DNA from: Oscillospiraceae bacterium
Lineage (GTDB): Bacteria > Bacillota > Clostridia > Oscillospirales > Acutalibacteraceae
Length of the DNA: 33,530 nucleotides
NCBI GenBank assembly: GCA_910574935.1
Contig: CAJTCU010000025.1
Coordinates: forward strand, 1 to 33,530
Reading direction: 5' to 3'
Shown piece after piece: positions 9,838 to 28,110 of the stretch. Each line of letters opens with the position of its first letter. Position 1 is the stretch's first letter. The notes under the pieces are model-generated. The model did no database searches and had not been told where the DNA came from. It saw only the letters and a program-made list of their open reading frames with translations. Made by a program: the position numbers and the translations under genes.

Positions 9838-9963
9838 ACAAAAAAGTGCCATCCGGGTTTGCTCTTGGCAAACTCAAATGACACTATGCTACTCTGTTAC
9901 TTTGTCCGTTTGGGGAACCTAATACTATAATGCTGTTTTATCAGGTTTTCTTGGCTTTGTCAA
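9838..9963 (-). promoter_or_regulatory. Leader L1: promoter, 5' leader and attenuator before the recombination operon
   Basis: On the minus strand, TTGACA (9958-9963), a 17-bp spacer and TAAAAC (9935-9940) are followed by a leader beginning TATAGTATTAGGTTCC, a small GTTCC/GGAC hairpin, the motif GTAACAGAG (9892-9900) and a terminator (9840-9885). The -35 lies inside the XRE gene and the -10 ends at its stop. Order and spacing match leaders L2-L4 even though the -10 is poor. Confidence 0.6.
9840..9885 (-). terminator. L1 attenuator/terminator
   Basis: AGTGTCATTTG pairs with CGGATGGCACT (inner pair GTTTGC/GCAAAC), then TTTTTTG. It also ends transcripts of the XRE gene. Confidence 0.75.
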
Positions 9964-10321
9964 TCTCCTTCTGCAGCTTCTTGGTAGCCTTGTCTCTCTC
10001 CTTTGACTGCTGGATCTGAAGCCTCAAGAGGGCGTATATCTTCTCGCGCTCGCCATCGGAGAGGTCTTCCATCATTTTGGAGAGCCTATTAGGCTGCTGA
10101 TCCGCCGAATGTTCCAGGATATCGCAGAAAACCGCGTCGGCGGGGACCTCCAGCACAGTGAGGATGCCTATAAGCTTATCCACGCCAGGATAATATTTCC
10201 CCCGCTCAACAGCGGAGATGTAGTGCTCATCTTTTCCCACCGCATTTCCAAGCTTCTTTTGTGATATTCCTTTATCTTTGCGGCACTCCTGGATGCGCCG
10301 GCCCAGCATAACTTTCCACAC
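9941..10321 (-). CDS. XRE-family HTH transcriptional regulator, 126 aa
   Basis: A DNA-binding repressor-type regulator. Residues 7-60 form a Cro/CI-like helix-turn-helix (GRRIQECRKDKGISQKKLGNAV, then HYISAVERGKYYP). The C-terminal half is helical, ending in a lysine-rich coiled coil (KATKKLQKEIDKAKK), likely for dimerisation or DNA contact. It lies between the toxin-antitoxin operon and the recombination operon, and its stop overlaps the L1 promoter, so it is a candidate regulator of that operon. An upstream promoter and a GTATAC/TTTCA-type inverted arrangement suggest autoregulation. The ATG has no strong ribosome site (AAGGTTGTG), so its level may be low. Confidence 0.88.
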   Translation of the reverse strand: MWKVMLGRRIQECRKDKGISQKKLGNAVGKDEHYISAVERGKYYPGVDKLIGILTVLEVPADAVFCDILEHSADQQPNRLSKMMEDLSDGEREKIYALLRLQIQQSKERDKATKKLQKEIDKAKKT

Positions 10322-10369
10322 AACCTTATACCTCTGCTCTTTGAAAATTCATCCCAACCTTGTAGCTTT

Positions 10370-10398
10370 AGTATACACGTTTCACGCTCATAAATTAA
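10370..10398 (-). promoter_or_regulatory. Probable promoter of the XRE gene
   Basis: On the minus strand, TTAATT (10393-10398), a 17-bp spacer and TATACT (10370-10375). Around it, TGAAAC and GTTTCA half-sites next to GTATAC-like boxes on both sides may be operators. Confidence 0.4.
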
Positions 10399-10452
10399 GG
10401 ACTTGAAACATTGGGTATAAATGTGTAACATCGGATTTTGAAAGAAAATTTT

Positions 10453-10487
10453 CAAAAAAGTTGGGCAGCTCGTGATTTGAGCCGCCC
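10453..10487 (-). terminator. Terminator after the PIN/RelB pair
   Basis: On the minus strand GGGCGGCTC pairs with GAGCTGCCC and is followed by AACTTTTTTG, 8 bp after the toxin stop. Confidence 0.8.
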
Positions 10488-10494
10488 TCATGGG

Positions 10495-10917
10495 TCAATT
10501 ATCACTTTTTTCGGAGAGAATCAAGTCCAGCATTTGCCGGGGCGTAACCACAAAGGGCTTCACCGGGAAATGCTTGAGATTACCGGTAACCAGGTAGGCG
10601 TCGTCAGTCTTCCGCTGTTCCATAACGACCTCGTAGAAGACCGCGTCTTTGGAGTCAGGAATGATATCTTCTATGGGCCCAGCGTCAACTGGAACCCCAC
10701 ACTTCACAATGGAATCCAGGATAATCTTGACCGCTCTCGGTTCAAACTTAAACTTGGGGCGGAATAAAACTTCGCTGTATTCAGCCAAGATTTCATCATT
10801 GTACAATGGGATAATACGCCCATTCCCAATTTCTTTCAGAATACCGTTCGGTGTGGAGTTGGCTTTAAGAGCAGCAGATACCAGAACATTGGTATCTATC
10901 ACGGCATAATATTTCAT
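10495..10917 (-). CDS. PIN-domain toxin (VapC-like RNase), 140 aa
   Basis: A metal-dependent ribonuclease toxin. The first acidic residue is in AVIDTNVLVSAAL; D-E residues follow in NDEILAEYSEVL, and the third cluster is KTDDAYLVTGNLKHFP with a late PFVVTPRQML. This is the PIN subclass often annotated as 'putative toxin-antitoxin system toxin component, PIN family'. The ATG overlaps the antitoxin stop (ATGA), giving coupled translation with antitoxin first. It is intact, unlike the second PIN gene at 24050-24453, with which it shares the opening IDTNVL-SAAL. Confidence 0.88.
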   Translation of the reverse strand: MKYYAVIDTNVLVSAALKANSTPNGILKEIGNGRIIPLYNDEILAEYSEVLFRPKFKFEPRAVKIILDSIVKCGVPVDAGPIEDIIPDSKDAVFYEVVMEQRKTDDAYLVTGNLKHFPVKPFVVTPRQMLDLILSEKSDN

Positions 10918-11222
10918 TCTGATCTCCTGCTGTCGCGCTCTCTCCTCGCCGCCGCGATCTCCTCGTTGATCTCCTCCAAGGTCATGTCAGCCGTACCGTT
11001 CCGCTGTGCCTCTGCTTGAGTCTCATGCAGCGCTTCCATAAGCCTGGAACTGCCGTTACCCTTAGGCAAAGTCATCCCAAAGGGTATGCCATTGACCAGC
11101 ACAGACCGTTTCAGAAACATCCTGACGGCTGTCGGAAGGTCTATCCCTAATTCCTCATACACTGAGGCCGCCTGTGCCTTGAGTTCATCATCGACACGCA
11201 CCTGTAACAGGCTGCTTGACAT
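10914..11222 (-). CDS. RelB/DinJ-family antitoxin, 102 aa
   Basis: A ribbon-helix-helix antitoxin. Residues 6-40 (LLQVRVDDELKAQAASVYEELGIDLPTAVRMFLKR) are the RelB/DinJ DNA-binding fold; the charged C-terminus (EEINEEIAAARRERDSR) should wrap the toxin. The second ATG (11222) is preferred because GGGGG lies 8 bases upstream; an in-frame ATG at 11228 is too close. RelB/DinJ antitoxins usually pair with RelE/YafQ toxins, so pairing with a PIN toxin is a mixed arrangement, though it occurs in clostridia. A palindrome on its promoter suggests autorepression. Confidence 0.85.
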   Translation of the reverse strand: MSSSLLQVRVDDELKAQAASVYEELGIDLPTAVRMFLKRSVLVNGIPFGMTLPKGNGSSRLMEALHETQAEAQRNGTADMTLEEINEEIAAARRERDSRRSE

Positions 11223-11249
11223 TTTCATGCCCCCAATCTGTATTTGTTT

Positions 11250-11286
11250 ATACTACAAGTATATGATATTCGAGCTGAAAAGTCAA
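11250..11286 (-). promoter_or_regulatory. Promoter and operator of the PIN/RelB pair
   Basis: On the minus strand, TTGACT (11281-11286), a 17-bp spacer and TATACT (11258-11263). The inverted repeat ATACT-3-AGTAT (11250-11262) overlaps the -10 box, as expected for an RHH antitoxin operator. Confidence 0.7.
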
Positions 11287-11307
11287 TAGCAACTTAGTGA
11301 TATAAGC

Positions 11308-11336
11308 AAAGGACACCGGCAAGCCGATGCCCTTTT
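11308..11336. terminator. Bidirectional-looking terminator
   Basis: AAAGGACACCGGC and GCCGATGCCCTTT pair with a 2-base loop, just after the Rpn-like gene on the minus strand. The T-tract is short on both sides. Confidence 0.6.
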
Positions 11337-11339
11337 AGA

Positions 11340-11915
11340 CTACTTTTCGTGGATTTCCGGAACTACTTTATCCAACTGAGCCAAGTAAAGAGAACTGGCA
11401 ACACCACACCCCTCGCTTGTCCCTCCGGCATTTACCCACCTGAGAAAGTCGCAAACATCAGGCGCGGCATTTGCCTCAGTAAAGCTCATATTCAGGATAA
11501 ATGCACTGGAACCGTCGTCAAATGGCGTATTGCCCAGAGTGCTGATTACTCTCCCGATCCGGCGAACCGCCTTTCCTCCGCCGAGCGGGTCATCCGTGCA
11601 GATGAAGATAATGCAGCTTTTCAGCGTCTCGTCCTCCAGGTTATCTGGGTTAAGGAAGTCCCTGTCCATAATGGCTTGGCTGGCCCGAAGGCGTTTTCCC
11701 AAGTCGTACTCCTCGACAAGCTGCAGGGAGATGTCGTAGGTCAGCCCATCGCGGGTAAAAGCATGGACGTGCGCGCCCAGTATCTGGTGCGTCGGCGCGG
11801 GAGTAATTTTGGTAATGCTCGTTTCCAGCAGACCCTCCAGCAGTGGGCGAATGTTTTCCGGCTCCTGCATGAAGCGGTGGAAAGCATCGTAATCGAAGTA
11901 AAATTTTCTGCTCAT
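11340..11915 (-). CDS. PD-(D/E)XK (Rpn-like) family protein, 191 aa
   Basis: The pattern LLEGLLETSITKITPAPTHQ, then a beta segment GLTYDISLQLVEEYDLGKRLRASQAIMDRDFL, then FICTDDPLGGGKAVRRIG resembles Rpn/PDDEXK_2 'recombination-promoting nuclease/putative transposase' proteins. These often report the state of proteins from mobile elements. The usual E-x-Q of the catalytic strand (IEMQ) is SLQL here, so the catalytic glutamate is missing and activity is doubtful. The start at 11915 follows AAGGAG; the gene lies 11 bp after the VWA gene and probably shares its transcript. A terminator closes the unit. Confidence 0.55.
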   Translation of the reverse strand: MSRKFYFDYDAFHRFMQEPENIRPLLEGLLETSITKITPAPTHQILGAHVHAFTRDGLTYDISLQLVEEYDLGKRLRASQAIMDRDFLNPDNLEDETLKSCIIFICTDDPLGGGKAVRRIGRVISTLGNTPFDDGSSAFILNMSFTEANAAPDVCDFLRWVNAGGTSEGCGVASSLYLAQLDKVVPEIHEK

Positions 11916-11926
11916 TTGCGTTCTCC

Positions 11927-14137
11927 TTATATTTTTATATGCTTCTTCACAACTGCCGTCAGCTTCCCCGGCAGTTGCTCCAAGTCCGTAATATCCAGGA
12001 AAGAATCACCATAGATCCGCTGGATATTGGGCTTATCATCGCCAATAGCGGCCGCCACAAAAACTACTCCCTTGCGCTGATACTCCTGCTTGATGCCCCT
12101 CAGATCCTCCTCGGCGGCAGTACCATCATAGCCGGTATCAGCAGGCTGACCGTCTGATACGAGAATCAGAATCTTGACCGCCTCCGGGCGCTTAGAAAGC
12201 CGCTCCGCAACAAACCTCAGAGCCGCGCCATCCCGGTTGCTGCCCCTTGCACCGATGTCCATAAGCCGGTAGCGATCGTCGCTGTCAAAGCCGTCGAACT
12301 CGGCATAAGAATACAGCTCGACTGTGTTCCAACCTGTAGAATGTCCATAGACCATTATAGGAATGTCCAGACTATCACAAAAATCGTGCAAGATAATAGC
12401 TGCCGCGCGGGCATAGGTGCAACGGTCTCCACTGCACATAGAGCCGGACTCGTCTACCAACAACCCAACGGCCAGCTCAGGTATCTCGTTGGGGAGGTTG
12501 TTCTTGTAGAACACCTTGCCATCATTCCGGCACAGAGCGTGGGTATCGAGCCTTCTGCCCATGACCAGCCCCGTTTGCTTGCCGCCCTGACGGTGTTCTT
12601 TGAGCTCCTTCTGAATGCTTCGCTGGAGCTGCTTGGAAATCGTCACCAGTCGGGGTGCGACGGTATCGTACTTTTCCATGAGGTCGGTGTCCACGCTGGC
12701 GATACGGTTGATTCTGATGTTCACGCCGCTATGAATGTCGCCGTAGGAGATGCTGTTGGCCATTTCGTTGAGCTCAGTAAGCCGCTCGTTTTCCAACTGT
12801 TTACAGGCGGCACGCTCGGCCATTTTGTCCAGCATACGGTCGATATCTGACGCGGCTTTGTCGTACTGCTCACGCTCGTAATCAGCGTTGTACTCAGCGG
12901 TGCCGCCTACCGGCTCAGACAGAGAGCTGGTCTGGTGGTAGGGAATACGACCACCCTCGGAGTCGGTGACGTCCTGCTTTCCGGTTTTAGTGCCCTCCCC
13001 TTCCAGGGGCGGTAAATCTTTGTCGGACTGTGCGGGGTCTTCCTCAGTGGGCTCGTCCTTGCTGTCATCAGATTCATCATTGCCCGCTTCAGCATCCTCA
13101 TGGGTCTTGGCACGGTTTGCCGCCGTCGCGGAAGCGCCCCCGGAGCTGCCTGCTCCTGGAACAGGCGTGCCGCCAGTGCCAACAGTAGTCGCGCCGGGCA
13201 TACCGCCTAAACTCTTTTTGACCGCGTCCGACATGGACTCAGCCGCCTCTTTTGCCGCCTTGAGCTTTTCACAATAGTCCTGGATATGCTCCCAACAGCG
13301 CACTAGAATCAGATTTACGGTGCGTAGCCGGGTCTTGGGGTCGGGGTCGGTTATCGAGCGGTCAAGCTGGGTTATAAGGTCGAAGATGGTCTGGATACGA
13401 ATATCGTCCAAATTCTCATCACCGTATTTGATTTCGCCGTACTTCACATAGGACAGCATGACCTCCAAAATACTCTGAAAAATGTGGCACGAACCGTCGT
13501 CCTCATATTGTTTCAGGTCAGTGACGGTGCCCATTTCTTCCCACATTTTTTCGCGCAAAACAGAAAGCCCAAAGCCCAGCGTACCTGGAAAATCGTTGAG
13601 CATACGGTTTTCAATGTAGCCATCCTCCAGCACGTTGGAGATAAAATGCGATACCTCCTTTACGGCCTCCAGATTCTTTGGGTCTGCCTTGAGGTATGCC
13701 CACATGGCCTTCTCATTGGCGAAGTCCTCTGACGTGTGCAGGGTGGGCGGTTCCGGATACCACATACCACGTTCCATATAGTTTGCCTGGGTCTGAGGCT
13801 GCAAAAAATCGGTATACAGCACATGGCCCAGCTCATGGGCGAACATCCCGCATACGATCTGATACCGGTTCTCTCGGCCCTTGGTCTTAGTCACCATCGG
13901 GTGGCCTGTGTTGATGTGTATAGTCATATTGTCCGTGCAGGCAACGCTGCCTGATTTGGGCTCCCAGCTTAGCTGCACTCTCACCTGGCGGCCGTACTTA
14001 TAGCGCCGTGTCTGGGCGGCGGCCATGTCCTCGAAATGTCCTGCCAGCACACGGCTGGTGAAGAACTGCCGGTCAGTTATCTTGCTCCGCTTCTCGTTGA
14101 GCAGCTTTTTTACCAGTTTGTGGTTTACTCTTGCCAT
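11927..14137 (-). CDS. Zincin-like + VWA-domain protein (CobT/NorD-like), 736 aa
   Basis: A large cytoplasmic protein. Residues 101-105 are HELGH, with a downstream conserved NVLEDGYIENRM (168-179) that could give the third metal ligand. Residues about 310-420 are a low-complexity Gly/Ala then acidic linker. A C-terminal VWA domain begins at about 555 and has the MIDAS motif DESGS (562-566), a later Thr, and SDGQP. CobT, NorD and related proteins normally work with a MoxR-type AAA ATPase as chaperones or metal inserters; no MoxR gene is seen here. Forms like this recur on clostridial plasmids, but the substrate is unknown. The ATG has GGAGG 8 bp upstream and follows a terminator, suggesting conditional read-through from the ssb operon. 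Confidence 0.75.
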   Translation of the reverse strand: MARVNHKLVKKLLNEKRSKITDRQFFTSRVLAGHFEDMAAAQTRRYKYGRQVRVQLSWEPKSGSVACTDNMTIHINTGHPMVTKTKGRENRYQIVCGMFAHELGHVLYTDFLQPQTQANYMERGMWYPEPPTLHTSEDFANEKAMWAYLKADPKNLEAVKEVSHFISNVLEDGYIENRMLNDFPGTLGFGLSVLREKMWEEMGTVTDLKQYEDDGSCHIFQSILEVMLSYVKYGEIKYGDENLDDIRIQTIFDLITQLDRSITDPDPKTRLRTVNLILVRCWEHIQDYCEKLKAAKEAAESMSDAVKKSLGGMPGATTVGTGGTPVPGAGSSGGASATAANRAKTHEDAEAGNDESDDSKDEPTEEDPAQSDKDLPPLEGEGTKTGKQDVTDSEGGRIPYHQTSSLSEPVGGTAEYNADYEREQYDKAASDIDRMLDKMAERAACKQLENERLTELNEMANSISYGDIHSGVNIRINRIASVDTDLMEKYDTVAPRLVTISKQLQRSIQKELKEHRQGGKQTGLVMGRRLDTHALCRNDGKVFYKNNLPNEIPELAVGLLVDESGSMCSGDRCTYARAAAIILHDFCDSLDIPIMVYGHSTGWNTVELYSYAEFDGFDSDDRYRLMDIGARGSNRDGAALRFVAERLSKRPEAVKILILVSDGQPADTGYDGTAAEEDLRGIKQEYQRKGVVFVAAAIGDDKPNIQRIYGDSFLDITDLEQLPGKLTAVVKKHIKI

Positions 14138-14165
14138 TTTGGGCCTCCAATTCGATTATGATAGG

Positions 14166-14193
14166 GAAAAAGGGCCAGACTTACCGCCTGGCC
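14166..14193 (-). terminator. Terminator before the VWA gene
   Basis: On the minus strand GGCCAGGC pairs with GTCTGGCC and is followed by CTTTTTCCC, between the 188-aa gene and the VWA gene. Confidence 0.7.
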
Positions 14194-14214
14194 GTTCCCA
14201 TTATTCCTGTGATA

Positions 14215-14781
14215 CTATTTTGCCTGAGTCAAGCAGATACTTGGCAAAGTCGTGCTCGGTTTGACCCGGAGGTAGACGTTGTCGCACAGAATTGCCATGG
14301 TATTTGTGGTGACAGCGTTATCTGGAAAGCCCGACACATACTGGTCGTAATACTCCTTGAAGTTCTGCTCAAATTCCTCGTCCTTAGCGAGGAACGGGAA
14401 CATAGCCATCACCACAGCGGCCCCATCCCTGCCTGCATTGTTCAGCACATAGTTTTCGCTGGTCTCGGTATTCTTGTCGTAGACCGTAGCCAGAATTGTT
14501 CCAGTACCGCTGTCAAAAACCGCCAGATGGTAAGCGTCCGGGCTCATGGAGGATTTGTATTCCGCCACGGAGCGGTGGTCGATCACGCCCACAGCGCCCT
14601 CGCCGGAACCGTTCATGCAAGCGCAAACGGCGTTCAGCGCTTTTATGACCGTGCAGCAGAGAGTCGCTTGCCTGCCGTCGCCGTATTTTGAAGCCACCGG
14701 GATCCTCTTGTTGGTGACCGTATCGAAAGGCGGCGGCAGCGGACGGCCGAAGTTGAAAAGGTTATTCAGGCCGGTACTCAT
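14215..14781 (-). CDS. Hypothetical protein, 188 aa
   Basis: No recognised family. The start at 14781 is chosen because TTAGGAG lies 9 bases upstream; the in-frame ATG at 14787 is too close. It overlaps the upstream gene by 20 bp. The product looks like a compact alpha/beta enzyme-like or regulatory fold (LCCTVIKALNAVCACMN, AYHLAVFDSGTGTILATVYD, GRDGAAVVMAMFPFL), with four cysteines but no clear metal motif and no membrane segment. Second downstream of ssb in a likely operon, so a role in element maintenance is possible but unproven. Confidence 0.65.
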   Translation of the reverse strand: MSTGLNNLFNFGRPLPPPFDTVTNKRIPVASKYGDGRQATLCCTVIKALNAVCACMNGSGEGAVGVIDHRSVAEYKSSMSPDAYHLAVFDSGTGTILATVYDKNTETSENYVLNNAGRDGAAVVMAMFPFLAKDEEFEQNFKEYYDQYVSGFPDNAVTTNTMAILCDNVYLRVKPSTTLPSICLTQAK

Positions 14782-15508
14782 TTTCATCAGCTCCTAACAT
14801 GATTTTTATGCCCTCGGCAAGGACTTTTGTCTTGAAACCAGCTCGGGCCAGTTCGGTGCAGATGTCCTGCCAGCTTTGGGCTACGGGAAGTTCCGTTTCC
14901 GATACCAGCAGATGGGTAAGGCCATTTTTCGCAGCCTCGTCGCACCGGGAGCCCAGATCGGACAGGTGTGCGTCCACCCACTGGAAAGCCAGGAGGGAGT
15001 AGTTGTCAGGCTCATTTTCCTCCGGCTCAGGGGCGGCTGGCGGCTTGGTAGGGGCAACGGTGATGCCCTCATACTTCAAGCCGGTCACCTGCAGGTTTTG
15101 GTACAGCACCTGTGCCCGGCGGTAGCCTCCAGCACGGTTCAGGAGGATGTACACCTCGTGGCCCTCCATGATTAGTTTCTGGGCAGAGGGAAACTCCCAT
15201 ACCCAGCGGGCATTTGGGTAATCCCGCGCTACCAGCTCAGTTATTCTCTGGCAAATCGTGGAGAACGCCAGGTTTTCCAGGTCGCGCTGGGTGGGCGTGG
15301 GGGCTGGGATAGGTTCTGCCGGTACGAACGGCACAAGTTGGGTGGACTTTGCCCTTTTGGATTTCACCAGAGTGCGTGCAACAACTGCCAGCCCATAGAT
15401 GATAAGAAAAATCACCATAGGCCAGAATCGGCACACATAACAGGCCATAATTGCCAGGCCAACGATTTTGAGCGAATCCAGAAGCGGGCTTCGTTTTGTC
15501 TCCTGCAT
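14762..15508 (-). CDS. Hypothetical membrane-anchored protein, 248 aa
   Basis: No recognised family. The ATG at 15508 has AAAGGAG; a longer frame to 15562 would run through a terminator and is rejected. Residues about 10-45 contain one or two membrane segments (VGLAIMACYVCRFWPMVIFLIIYGLAVVA). A basic patch, a proline-rich linker (PAEPIPAPTPTQ) and a soluble domain follow, with a conserved-looking NARWVWEFPSA, VYILLNRAGGYRRAQVLY and a second proline-rich linker. Topology suggests a cytoplasmic C-terminal domain. It lies downstream of ssb, separated by a terminator hairpin. Confidence 0.65.
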   Translation of the reverse strand: MQETKRSPLLDSLKIVGLAIMACYVCRFWPMVIFLIIYGLAVVARTLVKSKRAKSTQLVPFVPAEPIPAPTPTQRDLENLAFSTICQRITELVARDYPNARWVWEFPSAQKLIMEGHEVYILLNRAGGYRRAQVLYQNLQVTGLKYEGITVAPTKPPAAPEPEENEPDNYSLLAFQWVDAHLSDLGSRCDEAAKNGLTHLLVSETELPVAQSWQDICTELARAGFKTKVLAEGIKIMLGADENEYRPE

Positions 15509-15532
15509 GGCAGGCTCCTTTCTCCTGAACGC

Positions 15533-15571
15533 AAAAAAGCGCACAATAAGCAAAATACTCATTGTACGCTC
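15533..15571 (-). terminator. Terminator between ssb and the membrane protein gene
   Basis: On the minus strand AGCGTACAATGAG pairs with CTTATTGTGCGC and is followed by TTTTTTGCG. It resembles the second terminators of leaders L3 and L4 (AGCG-TACA ... GTGCGCTTTTTT). Confidence 0.75.
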
Positions 15572-15602
15572 TAAATACGCTCAGATTTCATTTTTGTGTG
15601 CC

Positions 15603-16067
15603 TTAATCGTTCTCGTCGAAGAAGGAGGCGCCGCCGAAAGGCTCGTAGCCAGTAAACTCACCGGGGGCCTCAGTAGGCAAGGGTGCCTTCTCGGGCTGAT
15701 GGGCCGGAGCGGAATCGCCCTCGGAATCATCTTTGGACTTGCCGCCCGCGTACTCAATGTCCTCTGCAACGACGTAGAGGTTCTTGCGGGTCTCGCCGTT
15801 TTTGTCTGTCCACACGTCCTCGTCCAGACGACCACGGATGTTGATGTACACGCCCTCCTTGAGCTGCATCTTCTTCACCCGGTCAACCATATAGTTGAAG
15901 CCCTTGACGTTCGGGTTGACCCAGCGCCGGTTGTCCTCGGCCTGGGAGTCGTATACTTTTTTGCCTACACGAAACCAGACAGCTTTCCCGCTATCTGATA
16001 CCTTGATGGCCGGCTCGTCCTGGTAGCCTTTGGAGACAACTGCCCCCGTGATTAGAACTGCTAACAC
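15603..16067 (-). CDS. ssb: Single-stranded DNA-binding protein (OB fold), 154 aa
   Basis: Coats single-stranded DNA during replication and transfer. The OB fold covers residues 1-110 (LITGAVVSKGYQ, GKAVWFRVGKKVYDS, VYINIRGRLDEDVWTDKNGETRKNLYVVAEDIEY). A disordered acidic/proline tail ends GGASFFDEND, a divergent acidic tip in the place where SSBs bind partner proteins. It starts with GTG after GAGAGGAG, so expression may be modest. It is the first gene after leader L2, and the hairpin TTGGCGCTACGCCA sits just before its ribosome site. Plasmid-type divergence from chromosomal Ssb (about 160 aa) is clear. Confidence 0.8.
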   Translation of the reverse strand: MLAVLITGAVVSKGYQDEPAIKVSDSGKAVWFRVGKKVYDSQAEDNRRWVNPNVKGFNYMVDRVKKMQLKEGVYINIRGRLDEDVWTDKNGETRKNLYVVAEDIEYAGGKSKDDSEGDSAPAHQPEKAPLPTEAPGEFTGYEPFGGASFFDEND

Positions 16068-16127
16068 TTTTGTGCTCCTCTCTGGCGTAGCGCCAATAAA
16101 TTTTTAAGCTCACGGCTTTCTGGAAAC

Positions 16128-16173
16128 AAAAAAGTGCCATTTGAATCCGCACGGTGCGGACGCAAATGACACT
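16128..16173 (-). terminator. L2 attenuator/terminator
   Basis: AGTGTCATTTG pairs with CAAATGGCACT, with an inner GTCCGCA/TGCGGAT stem, then TTTTTTG. Its outer arms and tail closely match L1. Confidence 0.85.
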
Positions 16174-16253
16174 CTGTAACTCTGATACTATGCTTCCAAG
16201 AGGAAACCATGAAACTGTATCTATAATATATCACAGTTCCCCCGGTTCGTCAA
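16128..16253 (-). promoter_or_regulatory. Leader L2: promoter, 5' leader and attenuator before ssb
   Basis: On the minus strand, TTGACG (16248-16253), a 17-bp spacer and TATATT (16225-16230). The leader starts ATACAGTTTCATGG, forms a GTTTCC/GGAAGC hairpin, carries GAGTTACAGAG (16172-16182) and runs into a terminator (16128-16173). The promoter overlaps the stop of the upstream membrane protein gene. Confidence 0.75.
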
Positions 16254-16698
16254 TCTTTTTCTTGGGTGGGACGGCGAGTTCCAAAGCAAGATATGAGAAG
16301 ATTTTGAAGATTCCGTCTTGCTCGTACACTGGTGTGCTGTTGGCAAGATATAGCATTACGGAGCTGTTTATCGGGAAATATTTACGGTTTGCTGGTAGCT
16401 GGATAATACCCTCTCCGGTTTCAAGCAGCAGATATTTTGGGCGCTTACGGATGCCTGTTGTAATTATCTCTTTGACCGTTCTGGTGGTGCAAATATACTC
16501 ACGGTGGGTGATCAGCGTACCGCTGATTAGCAAGAATAGCGCTATTGCAGCGAATGGGATTGCAAGATAAAAGTTGCTCATGGAGGCCCATACTATAATG
16601 AAAAGCACAAGTACCGCGCCGCCAACTACCATCCGCAAACCTATCACCCTCCGCAACGGCTCCGACAGTTTTTTGAATTTCTCACAGGTCGATTTCAC
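16231..16698 (-). CDS. Hypothetical two-span membrane protein, 155 aa
   Basis: No recognised family. Residues about 20-62 form two membrane segments (MVVGGAVLVLFIIVWA and LAIPFAAIALFLLISGTLI). A soluble domain of beta character follows (REYICTTRTVKEIITTG, KYLLLETGEGIIQLPANRKYFPI), ending in a basic/proline tail. The layout recalls small bacterial PH-domain or stress-sensing membrane proteins. Its ATG overlaps the stop of the 184-aa gene (ATGA), so the two are coupled. Its stop coincides with the L2 promoter. Confidence 0.7.
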   Translation of the reverse strand: MKSTCEKFKKLSEPLRRVIGLRMVVGGAVLVLFIIVWASMSNFYLAIPFAAIALFLLISGTLITHREYICTTRTVKEIITTGIRKRPKYLLLETGEGIIQLPANRKYFPINSSVMLYLANSTPVYEQDGIFKIFSYLALELAVPPKKKIDEPGEL

Positions 16699-17249
16699 AG
16701 CAACACCAGCCTCTTTTTTCTGAGCAGTGACAGCAGATCAGACACTACCTCGTCCCGGCAGCCCGCCGACTCCATCTGCTGCTCTAAGAGGTTATCCGCG
16801 ATGTTGTGAGGGTTATAGATTCTCTCCACCAGCGCCTGACGGTTTCTTGCCCGGAGTAGCTTGCGGGTGGGGTGGATGTCCCTGCTCCGTAAATATACCA
16901 GCTCGGCAACGGTCATGCGCAAGCCCGCCTTCTTCAGCCAGCAGAGAAGTTCTTTTTCCCCGGTGGTAAGCCCGATGTCCGGACGCCGTGTGGGGCAGAG
17001 GACACAACTGGTCAGTGCATAGTAGCGAAAGGCGGCAGAGTTCTCCTGCTGGATTTCTGCAAGTCCGGCCCGGGAGAGGCTTGTCAGCGCCATCTCCTCG
17101 GCCTTGGTCTGAGCGGACGCGAACTCGTACCGGCCCTTGCGCCAAAGCTCGGCCTGGAGGCCGGAGAGCTGGACGGTCTTGCCACAGCGGGTCACTTTGA
17201 GGGGCTTGTGCAGGCTGGATTTTGAGGTACCTTTGGATATGTAAATCAT
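16695..17249 (-). CDS. Hypothetical protein, possible winged-helix, 184 aa
   Basis: No recognised family. The start at 17249 follows AAGGAG. The N-terminal 60 residues contain a stretch compatible with a winged helix (VQLSGLQAELWRKGRYEFAS, EEMALTSLSRAGLAEI). A middle segment has LCPTRRPDIGLTTGEKELLCWLKKAGLRMTVAELVYLRSRDI, which reads like a second helix-turn-helix, and the C-terminus is leucine-rich and basic. There is no membrane segment. It is translationally coupled to the two-span membrane protein, so it could be its soluble partner or regulator. Confidence 0.65.
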   Translation of the reverse strand: MIYISKGTSKSSLHKPLKVTRCGKTVQLSGLQAELWRKGRYEFASAQTKAEEMALTSLSRAGLAEIQQENSAAFRYYALTSCVLCPTRRPDIGLTTGEKELLCWLKKAGLRMTVAELVYLRSRDIHPTRKLLRARNRQALVERIYNPHNIADNLLEQQMESAGCRDEVVSDLLSLLRKKRLVLL

Positions 17250-17310
17250 GGTTTTTGCTCCTTTTCGAGGATTTTATCATACTACACGAACTATGAAAGC
17301 ACTCTACAAC

Positions 17311-17652: not shown

Positions 17653-17675
17653 TTTCAACAGCCTTTCCACAATAA

Positions 17676-18483: not shown

Positions 18484-19170
18484 TTAGAACATTGCCACAG
18501 CCCCATACCTTGGCTCCACAGAGTATACCGGCTCGGGGACGCTCTCTTTTGCTTGTGCTGGAATCCGTTCCAGCTTGCGAGGGATCTCCTTTTGCGTTGT
18601 AGCATGCCTCGTGTACCAAGCCGTCAGCCACGCCTCATAGTGAGCCTTAGTAGTCAGCATCAGCCCGCTGAAGCTCTCATAGGTCATGCTCACCGAAACA
18701 TGGTTCTCAGGCTTGTTCCCAAAGCGCGGCACGATAAGCCCAGTCTTGTTGGTCTCACCGGGCCCGCTGCTGGCCACGAACAGAAAATTTCCGTTTTTGC
18801 CGCATACCAGTTCAGCCGTGCGAGAAAGGCTCATGTTATCAGGACGGGAGCGGTTGATTTTCGCCAACTTCTCAGCCGAAGTACCGCCCAGGCATTTGTA
18901 AAGGGGCTCCTTGTTGCTCTCTTTCAGGCGCTGGGCCATCATATGCCGTAGTTCGCCGGAACAGAGCTTCCGGCAAAGCTCCAGGAACTCGTCAACCGCC
19001 ATATAGATGTGGACGGAATTTGTCTGCCGCTGGCCTGCCGGGAGCTTCATGTCATAGGTTGCAAAGCCGAAATGCACCTTACCAAACTCGAAGGAATCGT
19101 TCAGGGTCTCAACAAAGCAGGCGCGGGCGTCTTTGCGAATTATTTGATGCTCGTTGCGGTCAGTGTCCAT
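18484..19170 (-). CDS. Hypothetical protein, 228 aa
   Basis: No recognised family. The start at 19170 follows GGAGG and overlaps the YgiT-like gene by 11 bp. The product is soluble; the first 70 residues look beta-rich (FEFGKVHFGFATYDMK, TNSVHIYMAVDEFLELCRKL). A central basic stretch (LAKINRSRPDNMSLSRTAELVCGKNGNFLFVASSGPGE) and a helical region (ESFSGLMLTTKAHYEAWLTAWYTRHA) follow, ending in a proline/acidic tail. Last gene of the ligA operon; its conserved place behind replication genes suggests an element-maintenance role. Confidence 0.65.
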   Translation of the reverse strand: MDTDRNEHQIIRKDARACFVETLNDSFEFGKVHFGFATYDMKLPAGQRQTNSVHIYMAVDEFLELCRKLCSGELRHMMAQRLKESNKEPLYKCLGGTSAEKLAKINRSRPDNMSLSRTAELVCGKNGNFLFVASSGPGETNKTGLIVPRFGNKPENHVSVSMTYESFSGLMLTTKAHYEAWLTAWYTRHATTQKEIPRKLERIPAQAKESVPEPVYSVEPRYGAVAMF

Positions 19171-20082: not shown

Positions 20083-20093
20083 TTGACGTCCTC

Positions 20094-21683: not shown

Positions 21684-21750
21684 GGTTTCACCATCCTTAT
21701 ATAATAGAAAGCGCGGGACAGTCACCTGCCCCGCCACTTTCTGCCAGTTA

Positions 21751-23796
<2,046 letters not shown>

Positions 23797-23805
23797 CTAT
23801 GAATG

Positions 23806-23837
23806 AAAAAAGCGCACACGGGTTTACCATGTACGCT
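23806..23837 (-). terminator. L3 second terminator
   Basis: AGCGTACATGG pairs with CCCGTGTGCGCT, then TTTTTTCATTC. Confidence 0.8.
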
Positions 23838-23910
23838 TTTGTTGTCCCTCCGGGGAGCACTATTAACTTTTGCGCCGGATTTCCTCGGCTAAAGCGCAAA
23901 TTGCGCTCGC

Positions 23911-23947
23911 AAAAAGCGCCTGAAAGTAACGGAAACTTTCAGGCGCT
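23911..23947 (-). terminator. L3 first terminator
   Basis: AGCGCCTGAAAGT pairs perfectly with ACTTTCAGGCGCT around 7 bases, then TTTTGCG. Confidence 0.85.
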
Positions 23948-24049
23948 CTGTAACTCGGATTACTGTGTTTGATTGAAACTCAAACTTGATACTGTATGTC
24001 TATTATATCAGAGTTCATTTCAAAATGCAACTACAAAAATCCAGCCGGT

Positions 24050-24453
24050 TTATGTCATGTTGATAAATTCGGCCGGTGATAGAATTTTGGGGGTTTCCAA
24101 ACCTGATTCCCAAAAATCCTTATCGCCAGTAAGAAGAACATCAGCCTTTGCCTTAATCGCCGCTCTTAAAATAGGGCGGTCATCCGCATCTCTGACTTGT
24201 GATTCTGATATGCTTTCGTCTGTTGGGATGGGTACAAGCTCAAGTGTCAGCAAAGCGGTTGAAAGGAATTATTGAGGGCCGCCAAGCGTTTAGGGAATTT
24301 CTTGTTGAATATCCTTCTCATTTCATCAACATTTTGCTCACAAATTAACCCGCGGTTAGGATAGGAGGCCGCCTTTACGTAAGCCTGGTAGGGAACTCCG
24401 TTTGCGCTCAGAGCCGCAGATATGAGGACATTTGTGTCAATTAGAACCCTTAT
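24050..24453 (-). pseudogene. Decayed PIN-domain toxin gene (start lost and frameshift)
   Basis: The N-terminal half reads RVLIDTNVLISAALSANGVPYQ... and ends at a stop near 24249; the C-terminal half, ...DADDRPILRAAIKAKADVLLTGDKDF, continues in another frame to 24050. A one-base loss in the AATTCC run near 24261-24270 (minus strand) restores the frame if a T is added. The expected ATG, overlapping the antitoxin stop, is ATA here (24451-24453), so both start and frame are damaged. Together the halves hold all PIN acidic positions of a VapC-like RNase. The antitoxin next to it is intact. Confidence 0.8.
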
Positions 24454-24725
24454 ACATCTTCATCCTGATTTCGCAATTCTTTTACAAGCGCCATAACATC
24501 CTCGTCTGATATAATGCCAGCCTGCTCTGCTTCGCCTGCCATTTCATTCTGAAGCACCTGCATGGCATATACAGCCGAGTTGACAATACGGACAGCCCCA
24601 TCTTCCACAATAAAAGAAATGCGGTCTCCGCTTGCCACACCAAGGGCTTCACGAACGCCCTTTGGGATTGCGACCATCCCTTTTGCCATGATTTTTGCAT
24701 TGTCAACGAAAGTGTTTGATAACAT
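24450..24725 (-). CDS. AbrB/SpoVT-type (SpoVT-like) antitoxin, 91 aa
   Basis: A swapped-hairpin DNA-binding antitoxin. Residues 8-50 (DNAKIMAKGMVAIPKGVREALGVASGDRISFIVEDGAVRIV) are the AbrB fold, and an acidic helical C-terminus would bind the toxin. The ATG at 24725 has GGAGG 8 bases away; the GTG at 24734 overlaps that site and is rejected. The promoter is intact. Its partner toxin gene is broken, so the protein now acts alone, possibly as an orphan regulator or as protection against related toxins. Confidence 0.85.
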   Translation of the reverse strand: MLSNTFVDNAKIMAKGMVAIPKGVREALGVASGDRISFIVEDGAVRIVNSAVYAMQVLQNEMAGEAEQAGIISDEDVMALVKELRNQDEDV

Positions 24726-24821
24726 ATCTTCCACCTCCCCAAATATAGAAGAAGCATGGGTTTGCTCAAACTATAGCCTCTTGCTGTTTTGGAGCGCATC
24801 CACGTCCATCCATCTATTCTT

Positions 24822-24850
24822 ATTTTATCAGATTTTCACTGGGTATGCAA
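24822..24850 (-). promoter_or_regulatory. Promoter of the AbrB/PIN pair
   Basis: On the minus strand, TTGCAT (24845-24850), a 17-bp spacer and TAAAAT (24822-24827), about 100 bp before the ATG. Confidence 0.6.
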
Positions 24851-24894
24851 TCAATTTTTTGATCTAATCCGGCCTTACATGAATACTATTTGCA

Positions 24895-25647
24895 TCAGCT
24901 TGCCATCCTCTCCGCACTCCTCCACCGCATAGCCGCCCGAACAAACCCTTCCACGAACCCCCGCACTTCCTTCGGCGCGGAGCAGTCGCTGAAACCATAG
25001 AGCTGCTTGATCCTTCCAGCATCCATGTCGATTTCGGTGGTGAAGAAGGGCTTTTCCGGCTGGCTCGCCCGGCGGATAAAGAACACCATGCTCCGGCCAA
25101 GAACGTGCCGGTCATAGTAGCCGGCGTTCCCCACACAGTGATGCAGACTACGGCCCTCATTGATGAAGTCGTTCTTGGTTTGGGGGTACACAACGCAATA
25201 ATCCTCGCTTGCGTACTCCTGTGCCCACTCGTACAGGCCGTTCTCAATAGCGCGGGACAGCAGCAAGTTCTCCTTCTCTGTCTTTTGCGCGGCAAGCTGC
25301 TCTGACAAGAGGTCATGCTGGGCTTTCAGGTCTCGGGGCTCCAGAACAGCCTTTTTCTTCAGGTTGCAGCCCAAATTCTTGGCCATGTCCAGATAATCCC
25401 GGTACACAGTAATGGCATATGGTATTTTGCGTCTTCTCAGCCGGCTGTGGGCCAGAGTGCGCTGCTTTGTCAAATAACGCAAAATACGGCCAAGAGAGTT
25501 ATATCGTAGAAGTCCCTGCAAAGTGTGCAGCGAATCCCAGTCCAGGTTCAGACTGCATAACTGCCGAACCGTGTCCTCCGGCACCCAACGCCCTGCTTCA
25601 GCAACGACCACGATTTCCATGGTGGTTGCCTGTGTTTCCCGCAGCAT
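24895..25647 (-). CDS. PcfJ-like protein, N-terminally truncated, 250 aa
   Basis: The PcfJ-like core reads GRSLHHCVGNAGYYDRHVLGRSMVFFIRRASQPEKPFFTTEIDMDAGRIKQLYGFSD, and the preceding part (TTMEIVVVAEAGRWVPEDTVRQL, RYNSLGRILRYLTKQR) matches the middle of longer clostridial PcfJ homologues. PcfJ was named from a pheromone conjugative plasmid; its role is unsettled. Homologues are usually much longer, so the first 200-300 residues appear missing. The frame stays open only 16 codons above the ATG at 25647 and has no good ribosome site there. The break coincides with the start region of the plus-strand gene, so this copy is probably not functional. Confidence 0.65.
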   Translation of the reverse strand: MLRETQATTMEIVVVAEAGRWVPEDTVRQLCSLNLDWDSLHTLQGLLRYNSLGRILRYLTKQRTLAHSRLRRRKIPYAITVYRDYLDMAKNLGCNLKKKAVLEPRDLKAQHDLLSEQLAAQKTEKENLLLSRAIENGLYEWAQEYASEDYCVVYPQTKNDFINEGRSLHHCVGNAGYYDRHVLGRSMVFFIRRASQPEKPFFTTEIDMDAGRIKQLYGFSDCSAPKEVRGFVEGFVRAAMRWRSAERMAS

Positions 25648-25670
25648 TGAGAGATACTGCTTGTTTCTAA

Positions 25671-25804
25671 TTGATTTTCCTGTTTTGCTGTGCTATACTC
25701 AGCTTAGACTTTCAAAACTCTCCTGTGAGAAAGTCAATACAAGCTACAGTTTATTTCGCCAGGAAGGAGGCCGCAGGATGGGAACAAGCTGGAAATTTCT
25801 CTGA
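25671..25804 (+). promoter_or_regulatory. Promoter and leader with an 8-residue peptide
   Basis: TTGATT (25671-25676), a 17-bp spacer and TATACT (25694-25699) form a promoter. The leader holds a GACTTTC/GAAAGTC hairpin and a mini-gene at 25778-25804 (MGTSWKFL, then stop) with a strong AGGAAGGAGG site 7 bases before its ATG. The main gene starts 29 bp later with TTG. The layout recalls translation-attenuation leaders, or it is the relic of a longer gene. Confidence 0.5.
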
Positions 25805-25833
25805 TATAGCCTTATTATATTGGAGGGAAAACT

Positions 25834-26775
25834 TTGAATATTATCATTGACAAAAATCTCTTTCTCGCCTATTGTGGCCTGATTGCCAGCGGCTATGATT
25901 TGATGGATACTTCAGATCCCTTGGTACGGGAGGTTTGCCGGGCCGCAGAACAAGCTCGGTTGGAGAAAAGACTTTTGGATTATTTCTCCTATACACGAAC
26001 CGGGACTATATCGGTAAACCCATACTATCCCAGAGGATCAGAACTTTCTTCGGCCTGCTTTTTTCTGGAGAAACCTTTGTCTGATTTTCTGGAGTTCCTG
26101 CGCTCCTGCAATGCTCCGGAGGCGGAAGATCCAGAATTTCGGGCATGGATCGCAAGGCTGCCAGGGGTCATAAAAACACTGTCGGACGATCCAATTCTTT
26201 CAGCGGCATGGGAATTGTATTCTTGTGAGTTGGCGCAGAGGTTTTCCGGACTTTCGCCACAGATATTGGCGTTACAGCAGCGTCTGGACGATCTGCACTG
26301 GGGAAACGGAGTGCGGATTTTATTTGCTCCCAACCTGCTGCAATCCAAATATCTGGCTGATTTTTCGCTGGCAGACAGCAGGCTATATCTCATCGCAGGC
26401 GAATTTTCCGAATCAGCCGCCATACACGAATATCTCCATCCCCTGTTACAGAAACAGCGCGGCGCGGTCCTCCGGCTGCTCCGGGTCCATAGACTTGACC
26501 GATTTCTGAATACAGAAAAGGTGGCAGCACTGGGGTACCTGATCGGCATATCAGAGGAGGACCAGGCTCATGCGTTGGAAGAGTGCATCGTGCGGGCCAT
26601 TACCGGGGTTTTAAGCGGCGTTTCACCAGAAGAATACTGCAAAATGAACCTGGAGTATGGTTTTACTTCTTTGCCGGAGATGATGGAACGCCTGTGGCAA
26701 AATTCTCTGGAGAAGAAAACGCTGGAGGAAATTCTGAGTGATGTAATAAGTCCCTGTTTAACTATTGATAGATAG
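25834..26775 (+). CDS. Hypothetical metallopeptidase-like protein (HEYLH), 313 aa
   Basis: No recognised family. The product has HExxH at 198-202 (AAIHEYLHPLL) followed about 47 residues later by ALEECIVRAITG, which could hold the third metal ligand, so a zincin-type peptidase fold is plausible. There is no signal peptide, so it is cytosolic. The start is TTG at 25834 with TTGGAGGG upstream. It is the only plus-strand gene between 3.5 and 30 kb and sits between the PcfK-like and truncated PcfJ-like genes. It is probably inserted cargo with its own promoter and leader. Confidence 0.65.
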   Translation: MNIIIDKNLFLAYCGLIASGYDLMDTSDPLVREVCRAAEQARLEKRLLDYFSYTRTGTISVNPYYPRGSELSSACFFLEKPLSDFLEFLRSCNAPEAEDPEFRAWIARLPGVIKTLSDDPILSAAWELYSCELAQRFSGLSPQILALQQRLDDLHWGNGVRILFAPNLLQSKYLADFSLADSRLYLIAGEFSESAAIHEYLHPLLQKQRGAVLRLLRVHRLDRFLNTEKVAALGYLIGISEEDQAHALEECIVRAITGVLSGVSPEEYCKMNLEYGFTSLPEMMERLWQNSLEKKTLEEILSDVISPCLTIDR

Positions 26776-26791
26776 ATTTACAAATTCCAGT

Positions 26792-27280
26792 TCATCGGGG
26801 AATTGAAACTCCCGCCGCAAAGCAAGGGCGCACTTCTATACACGGTCTGCGGCCATATACTACTCTCTCTGCGAGACTCGGCCCGGACTTCCAGAAGTCC
26901 GGGCCGTTGATCTCAATGTCCATAATGAACCTGACGTCGGCATTGGGGAAATACGCCTTCACGATTCCCCGGTACACGTCGATGTAAGAAATGTGGTTGC
27001 CGACACCCTTGAGCACCTCCGTACAGCAATCGGAAAGTGTGCGCTTGGTCTTGTAGACCACCTCGGCGAACTCCGGCGATTCCTCGCAAAAATGGGTTAT
27101 TTGCGCGGCAACGTGGGTGGAAACGCACTTCTCTTTCTGACCGCCGGTGAAGGATTTCAGCTCGGCGGCGATTTTCTCCGCGGCTATGGACTGGAACACG
27201 TTGTTGTCAGTTTGGGGCTGGTAAGCCTGGATGGGGATGACTGTGCTCTCGGTGGGGGTACATTCAACTTCTGGATTCAT
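26792..27280 (-). CDS. PcfK/AcrIIA9-like protein, 162 aa
   Basis: Residues 37-129 (KIAAELKSFTGGQKEKCVSTHVAAQ, FCEESPEFAEVVYKTKRTLSDCCTEVLKGVGNHISYIDVYRGIVKAYFP, RFIMDIEI) match the fold annotated as 'PcfK-like' or 'Cas9 inhibitor AcrIIA9 family'. AcrIIA9 proteins block type II-A Cas9. Many relatives on clostridial elements have not been tested, so function here is open. The first 30 residues are a proline/threonine tail. The C-terminus (GRRPCIEVRPCFAAGVSIPR) looks unlike the family and may be altered by the nearby insertion. The start at 27280 follows AGGAGG and overlaps the upstream stop (ATGA). Confidence 0.65.
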   Translation of the reverse strand: MNPEVECTPTESTVIPIQAYQPQTDNNVFQSIAAEKIAAELKSFTGGQKEKCVSTHVAAQITHFCEESPEFAEVVYKTKRTLSDCCTEVLKGVGNHISYIDVYRGIVKAYFPNADVRFIMDIEINGPDFWKSGPSLAERVVYGRRPCIEVRPCFAAGVSIPR

Positions 27281-27675
27281 TTTGAGGCCTCCTGTTTCTT
27301 GATTTTCAGTTTCGTGCATATTGCCAGCTTTTCCCAGTTCAGCCGCTGACCGCAAGAATCATGGTACTTGGGCCGGTACAGCCCTTCCTTCTGGCCCTTG
27401 CGGCGCTGGGTGATGGTGTCGCGGCAGTGGGGGCAGATGTAGTCGATGTACTCTCTGTCCCTGGTTGTGCTGATGATGACGGGCTCTGCCTGTGTTTTCT
27501 GAAGTCGGCGGACTGCCTCATGCAGCATCCGTATGTCGAGGGCAAAGATGTCGTCAGGGTCGTCACGGTCAACAAAACTGACCTTGTCCCTGGCTTGGTC
27601 GAGCAGACTGGCGATGACTGCCTTGATTTCCAGGGCATCTTGTGGTTTGGTACTGTGTGCAAACGGTATTTTCAT
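27277..27675 (-). CDS. Hypothetical protein with zinc-ribbon-like motif, 132 aa
   Basis: No recognised family. Residues about 84-115 hold CPHC...HDSC, a possible zinc site. The N-terminal half is helical and acidic (DDPDDIFALDIRMLHEAVRRLQKT). The start at 27675 has AAGAAGGA; a frame open to 27753 runs back towards the terminator. It is the first gene of the PcfK/PcfJ-like unit under leader L4, now separated from its promoter by a MITE. Confidence 0.65.
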   Translation of the reverse strand: MKIPFAHSTKPQDALEIKAVIASLLDQARDKVSFVDRDDPDDIFALDIRMLHEAVRRLQKTQAEPVIISTTRDREYIDYICPHCRDTITQRRKGQKEGLYRPKYHDSCGQRLNWEKLAICTKLKIKKQEASK

Positions 27676-27743
27676 TGTAGAATCCTTCTTTTCCAGCTTG
27701 GCGCTGGGATAAAAATTTGTGGCCAATGGGCCTGATATATATG

Positions 27744-27780
27744 AAAAAAGCACGCAAAGATAAACTCCGCGTGCTTTTTT
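27744..27780. terminator. L4 second terminator (bidirectional)
   Basis: AGCACGCGGAG pairs with CTTTGCGTGCT and has an A-run on one side and a T-run on the other, so it can stop transcription both ways. It precedes the 132-aa gene and resembles the second L3 terminator. Confidence 0.75.
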
Positions 27781-27787
27781 GCCTGGG

Positions 27788-27952
27788 TAGGGCTTGTTTG
27801 AAAATAGAGGAAATGACGAATTTTTACCCAGAAGGGGTTCATTTCAAGGAAAAAACCGCAAAGCAATCTTCCGATTGGCGAGGATTTTTGACGCAGAAAG
27901 GGGCCCTTTCTGGGTAAAAAGACGGCGTTTCCGATTTTTCAAACAAGCCCTA
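27788..27952. mobile_element. MITE copy 1, 165 bp, inserted in leader L4
   Basis: The ends are TAGGGCTTGTTTGAAAA and TTTTCAAACAAGCCCTA, inverted repeats of one another, with long inner stretches also partly inverted. It is homologous along its whole length to the second copy at 30584-30748, in inverted orientation, and both are 165 bp. There is no coding capacity. TA at both ends could be a target duplication. It lies between the two terminators of leader L4. Confidence 0.85.
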
Positions 27953-28110
27953 GGCTCAGTATATAGTTGTGCCGGATTTCCCCGGCTAAAACGCAAAAAG
28001 CGCCTGAAAGTAGTAACTTTCAGAAGCTCGTAACTCGGAAACTGTGTTTGGTTGAAAGTCAAACCTGATACTGTATAACAAAGTATAGCATAGCCAGATG
28101 CGTTTTACAA
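27953..28110 (-). promoter_or_regulatory. Leader L4: promoter, conserved 5' leader and first attenuator
   Basis: On the minus strand, TTGTAA (28105-28110), a 17-bp spacer and TATACT (28082-28087). The leader starts ATACAGTATCAGGTTTGA and forms a GTTTG/CAAAC hairpin. It then carries GAGTTACGAG (28027-28036), a terminator (27995-28027: CTGAAAGT/ACTTTCAG, TTTTTGCG) and a GCCGGGGAAATCCGGC hairpin. Over about 110 bases it matches L3 closely. It is interrupted by a MITE before its second terminator. Confidence 0.75.

Follow-up and report, generated by a model that had tools for sequence, protein, structure and literature searches.

A promoter, leader and terminator module shared by the DNA-processing operons of a clostridial integrative element: a candidate family of transcription attenuators

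The element and its four leaders

The stretch of DNA analyzed here (the window) is the entire 33,530-base contig C25 (CAJTCU010000025.1) of a draft genome of an Oscillospiraceae bacterium. Pfam matches comprise a serine recombinase at one end of the window and a tyrosine integrase and a sortase at the other, with YqaJ, a RecD-like helicase, a CobT-like VWA protein, SSB, LigA and PcfJ in between, a gene content which, judged from sequence, marks the window as an integrative element. Four of its operons are preceded on the minus strand by the same arrangement (L1 to L4, Table 1), i.e., a promoter, a leader of ~57 nt and a predicted intrinsic terminator, at the positions given in a first-pass annotation of the sequence. 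The order of parts is promoter, repeat R1, hairpin H1, near-repeat R2 and terminator T1.

The 17-bp promoter spacers described in that annotation are seen by eye at all four sites, with TTGACA/TAAAAC at L1, TTGACG/TATATT at L2, TTGCAT/TATAAT at L3 and TTGTAA/TATACT at L4. The motif ATACAGTATCARGTTTGA, noted earlier for L3 and L4, occurs exactly only at these two sites, with 0.04 matches expected at up to three mismatches, and the proposed division into two subtypes holds, most clearly in T1 (AGUGUCAUUUG..AUGGCACU in L1/L2 versus AGCGCCUGAAAG..CUUUCAGGCGCU in L3). A further motif, GAGTTACAGAG, had been described as overlapping the terminator; it is present there, exactly at L2 and L3, and is in fact repeat R2, with a partner repeat (R1) upstream. 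As a bare 11-mer it is weak evidence because, at up to two mismatches, it is about as frequent in shuffled sequence as in the window (6.6 versus 9 matches). A match to this 11-mer on contig C20 lies inside an ilvN-like gene (by reading) and was rejected. The same genome holds a fifth leader on contig C14, which precedes ligA and yqaJ matches broken into pieces (L071, ~7.6-16.6 kb), and this locus probably represents a second, degenerate copy of the element.

Table 1. Leaders, second terminators and downstream genes in the window
Feature	Coordinates	Strand	Parts and remarks
L1	9840..9963	-	Promoter 9935-9963, R1-H1-R2 9885-9936, T1 9840-9885; precedes DUF932-yqaJ-recD-primase operon, DUF932 start ~68 nt past T1
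L2	16128..16253	-	Promoter 16225-16253, R1-H1-R2 16173-16227, T1 16128-16173; precedes ssb, ~45 nt past T1
L3	23911..24030	-	Promoter 24002-24030, R1-H1-R2 23947-24004, T1 23911-23947; precedes ligA, ~211 nt past T1
L4	27995..28110	-	Promoter 28082-28110, R1-H1-R2 28028-28082, T1 27995-28028; precedes pcfK/pcfJ, pcfK-like ~745 nt and pcfJ ~2.35 kb downstream
T2 of L3	23806..23840	-	Intrinsic-terminator-like hairpin between T1 and ligA
T2 of L4	27744..27780	-	Intrinsic-terminator-like hairpin
DUF932 gene	8645..9796	-	First gene after L1; no Pfam or NCBIfam match, label from the first-pass annotation only; family in 16 of 16 elements
YqaJ recombinase and RecD2-like helicase genes	6030..8645	-	L1 operon
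ssb	15603..16067	-	First gene after L2
ligA (NAD-dependent DNA ligase)	21751..23709	-	First gene after L3
pcfJ-like gene	24895..25647	-	L4 operon

Operons behind the leader in related elements

Relatives of the element were collected by means of the VWA protein, which returned 57 loci in GTDB genomes and three in IMG/VR. A model built from 51 leaders (model R1) was run on 60 sources, i.e., the window and L007-L065, with L006 omitted (it repeats L010), and yielded 83 matches at E<=1e-3, distributed over the window and 48 of the 59 loci and all with the same orientation as the VWA gene. Outside the window there are 79 leaders, with ssb as the next gene in 39 cases, DUF932 in 35 and ssb behind an insertion in one; a further one is truncated at the end of its locus, and for three the next gene was not placed (L036, L042 and L062). 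The latter three are additional copies located between the genes for VWA and DUF932.

Sixteen elements were then compared, i.e., that of the window, those of 14 of the 24 match-bearing genomes, chosen for long contigs, and that of G334; as most were picked for having matches, sixteen out of sixteen is not an unbiased rate. These elements carry 48 leaders, every one of which precedes one of five operon types: ssb (16), DUF932 (16), the ligA side, i.e., methylase, f27/f36 and ligA (13), pcfK/pcfJ (2) and an LPD11 operon (1). The leader lies 68-197 nt from DUF932 in the 16 elements and ~45-113 nt from ssb in 15 of them, the exception being G303, where it lies behind an insertion of ~2 kb (L124-L126; L013). 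This insertion contains an open reading frame (ORF) of 432 aa that belongs to family f70, also seen in G308 and G312, and is possibly a group II intron. The related genomes hold 79 model matches, 41 of which fall within the 16 elements. A further 14 comprise eight on the ligA side (one of them in G310, on another contig), one at pcf and five whose gene was not placed (one each in G301 and G313, three in G305), and most of the rest fall in loci already counted via the VWA search. The earlier proposal that a single leader family precedes the DNA-processing operons of the element is therefore upheld (all 48 leaders of the 16 elements, copies in 48 of 59 loci), as is the presence of a terminator ~50 nt past each promoter.

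This placement bears on the possibility that the released short RNAs are themselves the functional products, as trans-acting small RNAs or sponges. A discrete RNA of ~90 nt with conserved unpaired repeats, present in several copies per element, would suit such a role, but the leaders stand before a few types of operon and share their orientation (48 of 48; 75 of 79 including the insertion case). Moreover, the longest exact complements to the leaders within the elements averaged 11.3 nt, versus 11.0 nt for shuffled leaders, in a search confined to exact pairing within the elements, the rest of the host lying outside it; a single 17-nt complement was seen in G316. Functional short RNAs are accordingly considered very unlikely, and an antisense-RNA immunity type, as represented by P4 CI/C4, found no support in the same complementarity data.

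Anatomy and covariation of the leader

Anatomical statistics were obtained from 61 distinct leaders, taking the best-scoring promoter of each relative to consensus hexamers and permitting spacers of 16-18 bp. The -35 hexamer is TTGAC- in 56 leaders and the -10 hexamer TATAAT in 44, while a TGn extended -10 is present in 59 and a 17-bp spacer in 58. Repeat R1 (AGUWUC) begins 8-11 nt past the -10 in 60 of the 61, which corresponds to the RNA 5' end, and repeat R2 (consensus AGU..CAGAGUU) is located between H1 and T1. The two repeats resemble each other, with a local similarity score of 7.1 versus 4.2 for shuffled sequence; the similarity exceeds the leader's own shuffled mean in 53 of 61 cases and is matched by at most five of 100 shuffles in 40, and in L031 and L040 the repeats are identical across 16 nt (by eye).

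Covariance analysis, as suggested in the first-pass annotation, revealed covariation in both hairpins and many further copies in relatives, so that two outcomes named there as refuting (a lack of covariation or of copies in related elements) did not materialize. In the fitted alignment, H1 and T1 together show 225 double-sided changes versus 75 in shuffles, and in an unfitted MAFFT alignment 129 versus 46, neither value being reached by any of 500 shuffles. For H1 alone, the unfitted alignment gives 78 double-sided changed cells versus 32 (none of 500 shuffles), while the count of pairs changed on both sides is reached by 48 of 500. In folding calculations, T1 has a mean pairing probability of 0.96, and its 5' arm pairs with upstream sequence at 0.33, compared to 0.46 when that sequence is shuffled, with 12 of 61 leaders exceeding the control. 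No competing antiterminator helix emerged from the covariation scan, in which the top pairs represent H1, T1 and links within the T1 arms, and an attenuator based on alternative hairpins, following riboswitch or T-box logic, consequently found no support. Given the folding of T1 and H1 and the low upstream pairing of the T1 5' arm, the default state appears to be termination, and the repeats, which are conserved and unpaired, have the appearance of a putative binding site.

Two other kinds of control can be weighed on the same set. Ribosome-mediated attenuation via a leader peptide is a negligible prospect: a Shine-Dalgarno-like site with a start codon occurs in one of 64 leaders, and no supporting point was found. 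Single-stranded DNA promoters of the Frpo type, which would permit expression upon entry into a recipient, find some encouragement in the fact that the leading regions of plasmids typically contain ssb-type genes (PMC11541004). Such promoters are nonetheless extremely unlikely here, as neither strand of the promoter region shows an excess of single-stranded DNA fold (mean z 0.27 and 0.08, with one of 61 leaders below -2 on each strand) and a canonical double-strand promoter is present.

The R1-H1-R2 segment is separable from T1

A model restricted to R1-H1-R2 (model R3) was built from 50 leaders without T1, its training set excluding all leaders of the ligA, pcf and LPD11 types in the 16 elements, including L3 and L4. 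Applied to 52 sources (1.0 Mb), it returned 49 matches at E<=0.5, consisting solely of the 48 leaders and the C14 copy. The untrained L3 and L4 were recovered with E-values of 4e-7 and 2.6e-6, respectively, while its own training members L2 and L1 scored 1e-5 and 0.008; across the 16 untrained leaders of the ligA, pcf and LPD11 types, whose T1 is of different sequence, E-values ranged from 1.6e-7 to 0.18. Both copies in L008 retain R1-H1-R2, one with a modified T1 and the other with a T1 that differs markedly; these copies were detected by model R2 (E 7e-6 and 0.0017) and not found by model R3. At the level of sequence comparison, therefore, a recognition element comprising R1-H1-R2 can be separated from T1.

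This separability also informs the notion of a constitutive throttle, in which T1 and T2 (the second terminator described below) would pass a fixed small fraction of transcripts and output would rise only with copy number. While the combination of a near-consensus promoter and a strong terminator in nearly all copies is what such a device would require, it would not explain why R1, R2 and H1 are conserved separately from T1, and a throttle is thus deemed quite unlikely.

A predicted second terminator follows T1 in most non-ssb operons

When the sequence between T1 and the first gene was inspected for a hairpin followed by a T run at -9 kcal/mol or better, a putative second terminator, T2, was identified behind 29 of 32 non-ssb leaders, i.e., 15 of 16 of the ligA, pcf and LPD11 types (mean score -18.8 versus -2.7 shuffled) and 14 of 16 of the DUF932 type (-17.1 versus -1.1). 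The exceptions are the LPD11 leader of G300 and, among the DUF932 type, L1 of the window and the leader of G317, while ssb leaders offer little space for T2. Tandem terminators behind an RNA element at the 5' end suggest that read-through past T1 may be processive, and the T1/T2 arrangement is consistent with processive antitermination.

Other repeats were also observed in the window. Inverted GGGCTTGTTTGAAAA repeats form two pairs (27790-27950 and 30586-30746), each 161 bp end to end and resembling miniature inverted-repeat transposable elements, one of which is placed between T1 and T2 of L4. T2 of L3 is flanked by TGCTCCCCGGA and TCCGGGGAGCA (~23740-23860, minus strand), and as the second copy of this flanking repeat contains a Shine-Dalgarno-like GGGGAG, an extra translational layer is possible at this site.

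Tandem terminators behind an RNA element also accord with factor-independent antitermination of the put or canT kind, whereby R1-H1-R2 would itself modify the polymerase while T1 and T2 insulate the operons against polymerase arriving from upstream or from the host chromosome. Two further points in its favour are that the RNA begins with repeat R1 at its very 5' end in 60 of 61 leaders and that the stretches compared lack a NusG paralogue, and canT of Tn916 is considered to work as RNA alone (PMC11658703). Conversely, near-repeats around one small hairpin are more reminiscent of protein sites, and the active canT fragments, at 341 and 452 nt, are far longer (PMC11658703). Upstream polymerases would, furthermore, transcribe R1-H1-R2 as well, so that insulation would not result from an RNA signal that is purely internal. 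Factor-independent antitermination is on these grounds regarded as unlikely, although less so than the throttle.

A candidate mechanism and the search for its factor

It is probable that each copy of the leader acts as a transcription attenuator, in which termination is the default and is relieved by a trans-acting factor that recognizes R1-H1-R2. A strong sigma-A-type promoter with extended -10 would produce an RNA bearing R1, H1 and R2 at its extreme 5' end, and this RNA would by default be released at T1, directly after R2, with most non-ssb operons presenting a second stop at T2 ahead of the first gene. A shared factor, most likely a protein reading the single-stranded repeats around H1, would allow polymerase to pass T1 and T2 and so turn on ssb, DUF932-yqaJ-recD-primase, the ligA side and pcfK/pcfJ together, probably upon excision or replication of the element or its entry into a new cell. 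A more far-reaching version, advanced here only tentatively, is an element-wide processive antitermination regulon, in which one factor, loading on R1-H1-R2 at the 5' end of two to five separate transcripts, would take polymerase past tandem terminators and release the ssb, recombination, ligase and pcf operons all at once, for instance when the element reaches a recipient without opposing control.

The first-pass annotation had postulated a shared trans-acting antiterminator or RNA-bound signal, or else action of the short RNAs themselves. This interpretation is partly supported: one leader family indeed precedes the operons, while no trans-acting factor was found. Specialized NusG (LoaP-type) antitermination found no support, as no PF02357 gene lies inside the stretches compared, the full extent of the elements reaching beyond these; at genome level, PF02357 is represented by one gene each in nine of 11 genomes, none in G306 and 11 in G303. 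Among the element proteins examined, no RNA-binding candidate stood out. The conserved orphan protein fam6 (16695-17249) gave a confident structure model (predicted local distance difference test, pLDDT, 92) with no PDB neighbour at E<=0.001, and fam12 (18484-19170) a poor one (pLDDT 58) whose top PDB match, a PURA repeat, was not significant (E 0.067). Protein fam12 is likewise a highly conserved orphan, present in 13 of 16 elements, with mixed strands and helices in its low-confidence model. With no NusG paralogue in the stretches compared and no antisense RNA, leader peptide, single-stranded DNA fold or telling orphan fold, an RNA-binding factor encoded by the element or the host is favoured.

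Several observations, including the lack of a NusG paralogue in the stretches compared and the uninformative fam6 and fam12 models, weigh against a factor-relieved attenuator. Among the leader-bearing stretches compared, fam6 was not seen in G317 nor fam12 in G305, G310 and G311. H1 is energetically weak, with a mean pairing probability of 0.60 in the 61 leaders, and the downstream gene was not placed for three of 79 leaders, nor for five of the 14 further matches. No match to model R1 at 1e-3 was obtained in 11 of the 59 loci, and model R3 rescued none (best E 1.1); in seven of these 11, the stretch examined showed no ssb or DUF932 start. In L032, L045 and L047, DUF932 stands directly behind another gene and has no leader, while the distant L060 (39% VWA identity) has an ssb-like ORF (by reading) that follows a terminator-like sequence with no recognizable R1-H1-R2.

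Distribution and neighbouring genes

Model R2 at E<=0.001 matched four of 245 genomes of the class and five of 295 of the order, own genome included; the two samples overlap, and the search filters lose weak matches. At E<=0.01, it matched 24 of the 25 genomes behind related loci, with two to seven copies each. Matches in the same-genus genome G125 lie at the same contig coordinates as in G300 (Acutalibacter sp. 1XD8-36, which holds L010), which makes Acutalibacter the probable genus of the host. Leader-bearing records are titled Lachnospiraceae, Oscillospiraceae, Clostridiaceae and Eubacteriaceae, while some loci occur in metagenome-assembled genomes titled Bacteroidales and are perhaps mis-binned. 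In L164 (G737, 1501-1595), the leader is followed by a short ORF, a fragment resembling a tyrosine recombinase and a small excisionase-like ORF (by ORF reading), and in L165 (G691) it lies near a distant relative of u20671, and the leader is thus not strictly confined to this element.

The strict pattern ACAGTATC..GAGTTACAGAG was found in the own genome only among 300 genomes of the family, and its IMG/VR match, L005, was rejected as it sits in a phage-like structural gene region. The single match of a second pattern (L171) lies among phage structural genes, was not found by model R2 and was likewise rejected, and a third pattern gave no match. Megablast of the window returned no match in plasmids (25 of 33.5 kb searched) or phages (23.7 of 33.5 kb), and that of one leader none in plasmids. 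A search with the VWA protein in plasmids gave 15 records, none with 80% query coverage, and one with the DUF932 protein in phages gave three. An Rfam scan of the window produced no matches, and two leaders in E-value mode gave 10 and eight, all under gathering scores, the best being EF3314_EF3315 (22.7 bits versus a gathering score of 100).

Toxin-antitoxin pairs are situated beside L1 (PIN_3/RelB, 10495-11228) and L4 (ParE/Phd-YefM, 28114-28681). In relatives, the primase gene is followed by an actin-like gene and its small partner (L105:1753-3021), a pair not seen in the window.

Comparison with known systems

To our knowledge, how the DNA-processing genes of large integrative and conjugative elements (ICEs) of gut Clostridia are silenced and then jointly expressed is largely an open question, for which the shared leader of ~57 nt represents a compact and directly testable handle. 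The same leader and stop signal before separate DNA-handling operons suggests that one factor switches all of them together, and a dedicated antiterminator, if confirmed, would constitute a new RNA-binding regulator of horizontal transfer. No description of the leader was found in the literature, where motif-discovery papers and a premature-terminator survey were covered by keyword with their supplements unread, so that an unnamed motif is possible there. The leader is a new family within a known kind of control, i.e., transcription attenuation/antitermination.

Lambda N/nut, HK022 put, EAR and LoaP likewise combine an RNA element near the promoter with passage through intrinsic terminators, but differ, as far as is known, in the sequence and order of parts, and no NusG paralogue is present in the stretches compared here. 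Tn916 also is an ICE with an RNA signal and intrinsic terminators between promoter and DNA-processing genes, yet its canT is one long RNA antiterminator (341-452 nt active) that is used once (PMC11658703), whereas each element compared here has two to five short leaders, each with its own promoter and terminator. The conAn system of pLS20, which requires both the ConAn1 protein and the conAn2 RNA (PMC8955417), shares the setting of a Gram-positive conjugative element, an RNA component near the promoter and terminators to be passed; it serves a single long conjugation operon, while the leaders described here head separate operons.

Among described systems, the EGeRS sequences of pLS20-family plasmids come closest. 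EGeRS1 is a structured sequence of 420-750 bp repeated before several establishment operons, its mechanism not being established; EGeRS1-B blocks upstream transcription and displayed no constitutive sigma-A promoter (PMC8708921). Both systems thus place one structured sequence before several operons of a Gram-positive conjugative element, but the present leader is compact (~95 nt) with its own promoter, H1, near-repeats and T1. Membership of EGeRS1, with its 400-750 bp of multiple hairpins lacking a sigma-A promoter, was rejected in view of this compactness and of the promoter hexamers (TTGAC- in 56 of 61, TATAAT in 44 of 61). EGeRS2 of p576 consists of promoters repressed by a ribbon-helix-helix protein (PMC8708921); here, too, strong promoters precede several operons of one element, those of EGeRS2 being switched together, while the conserved signal of the present family resides in the transcript, ahead of a terminator. 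If the tentative regulon proves correct, it would represent a third way to time establishment genes, beside EGeRS1/EGeRS2 and single-stranded DNA promoters.

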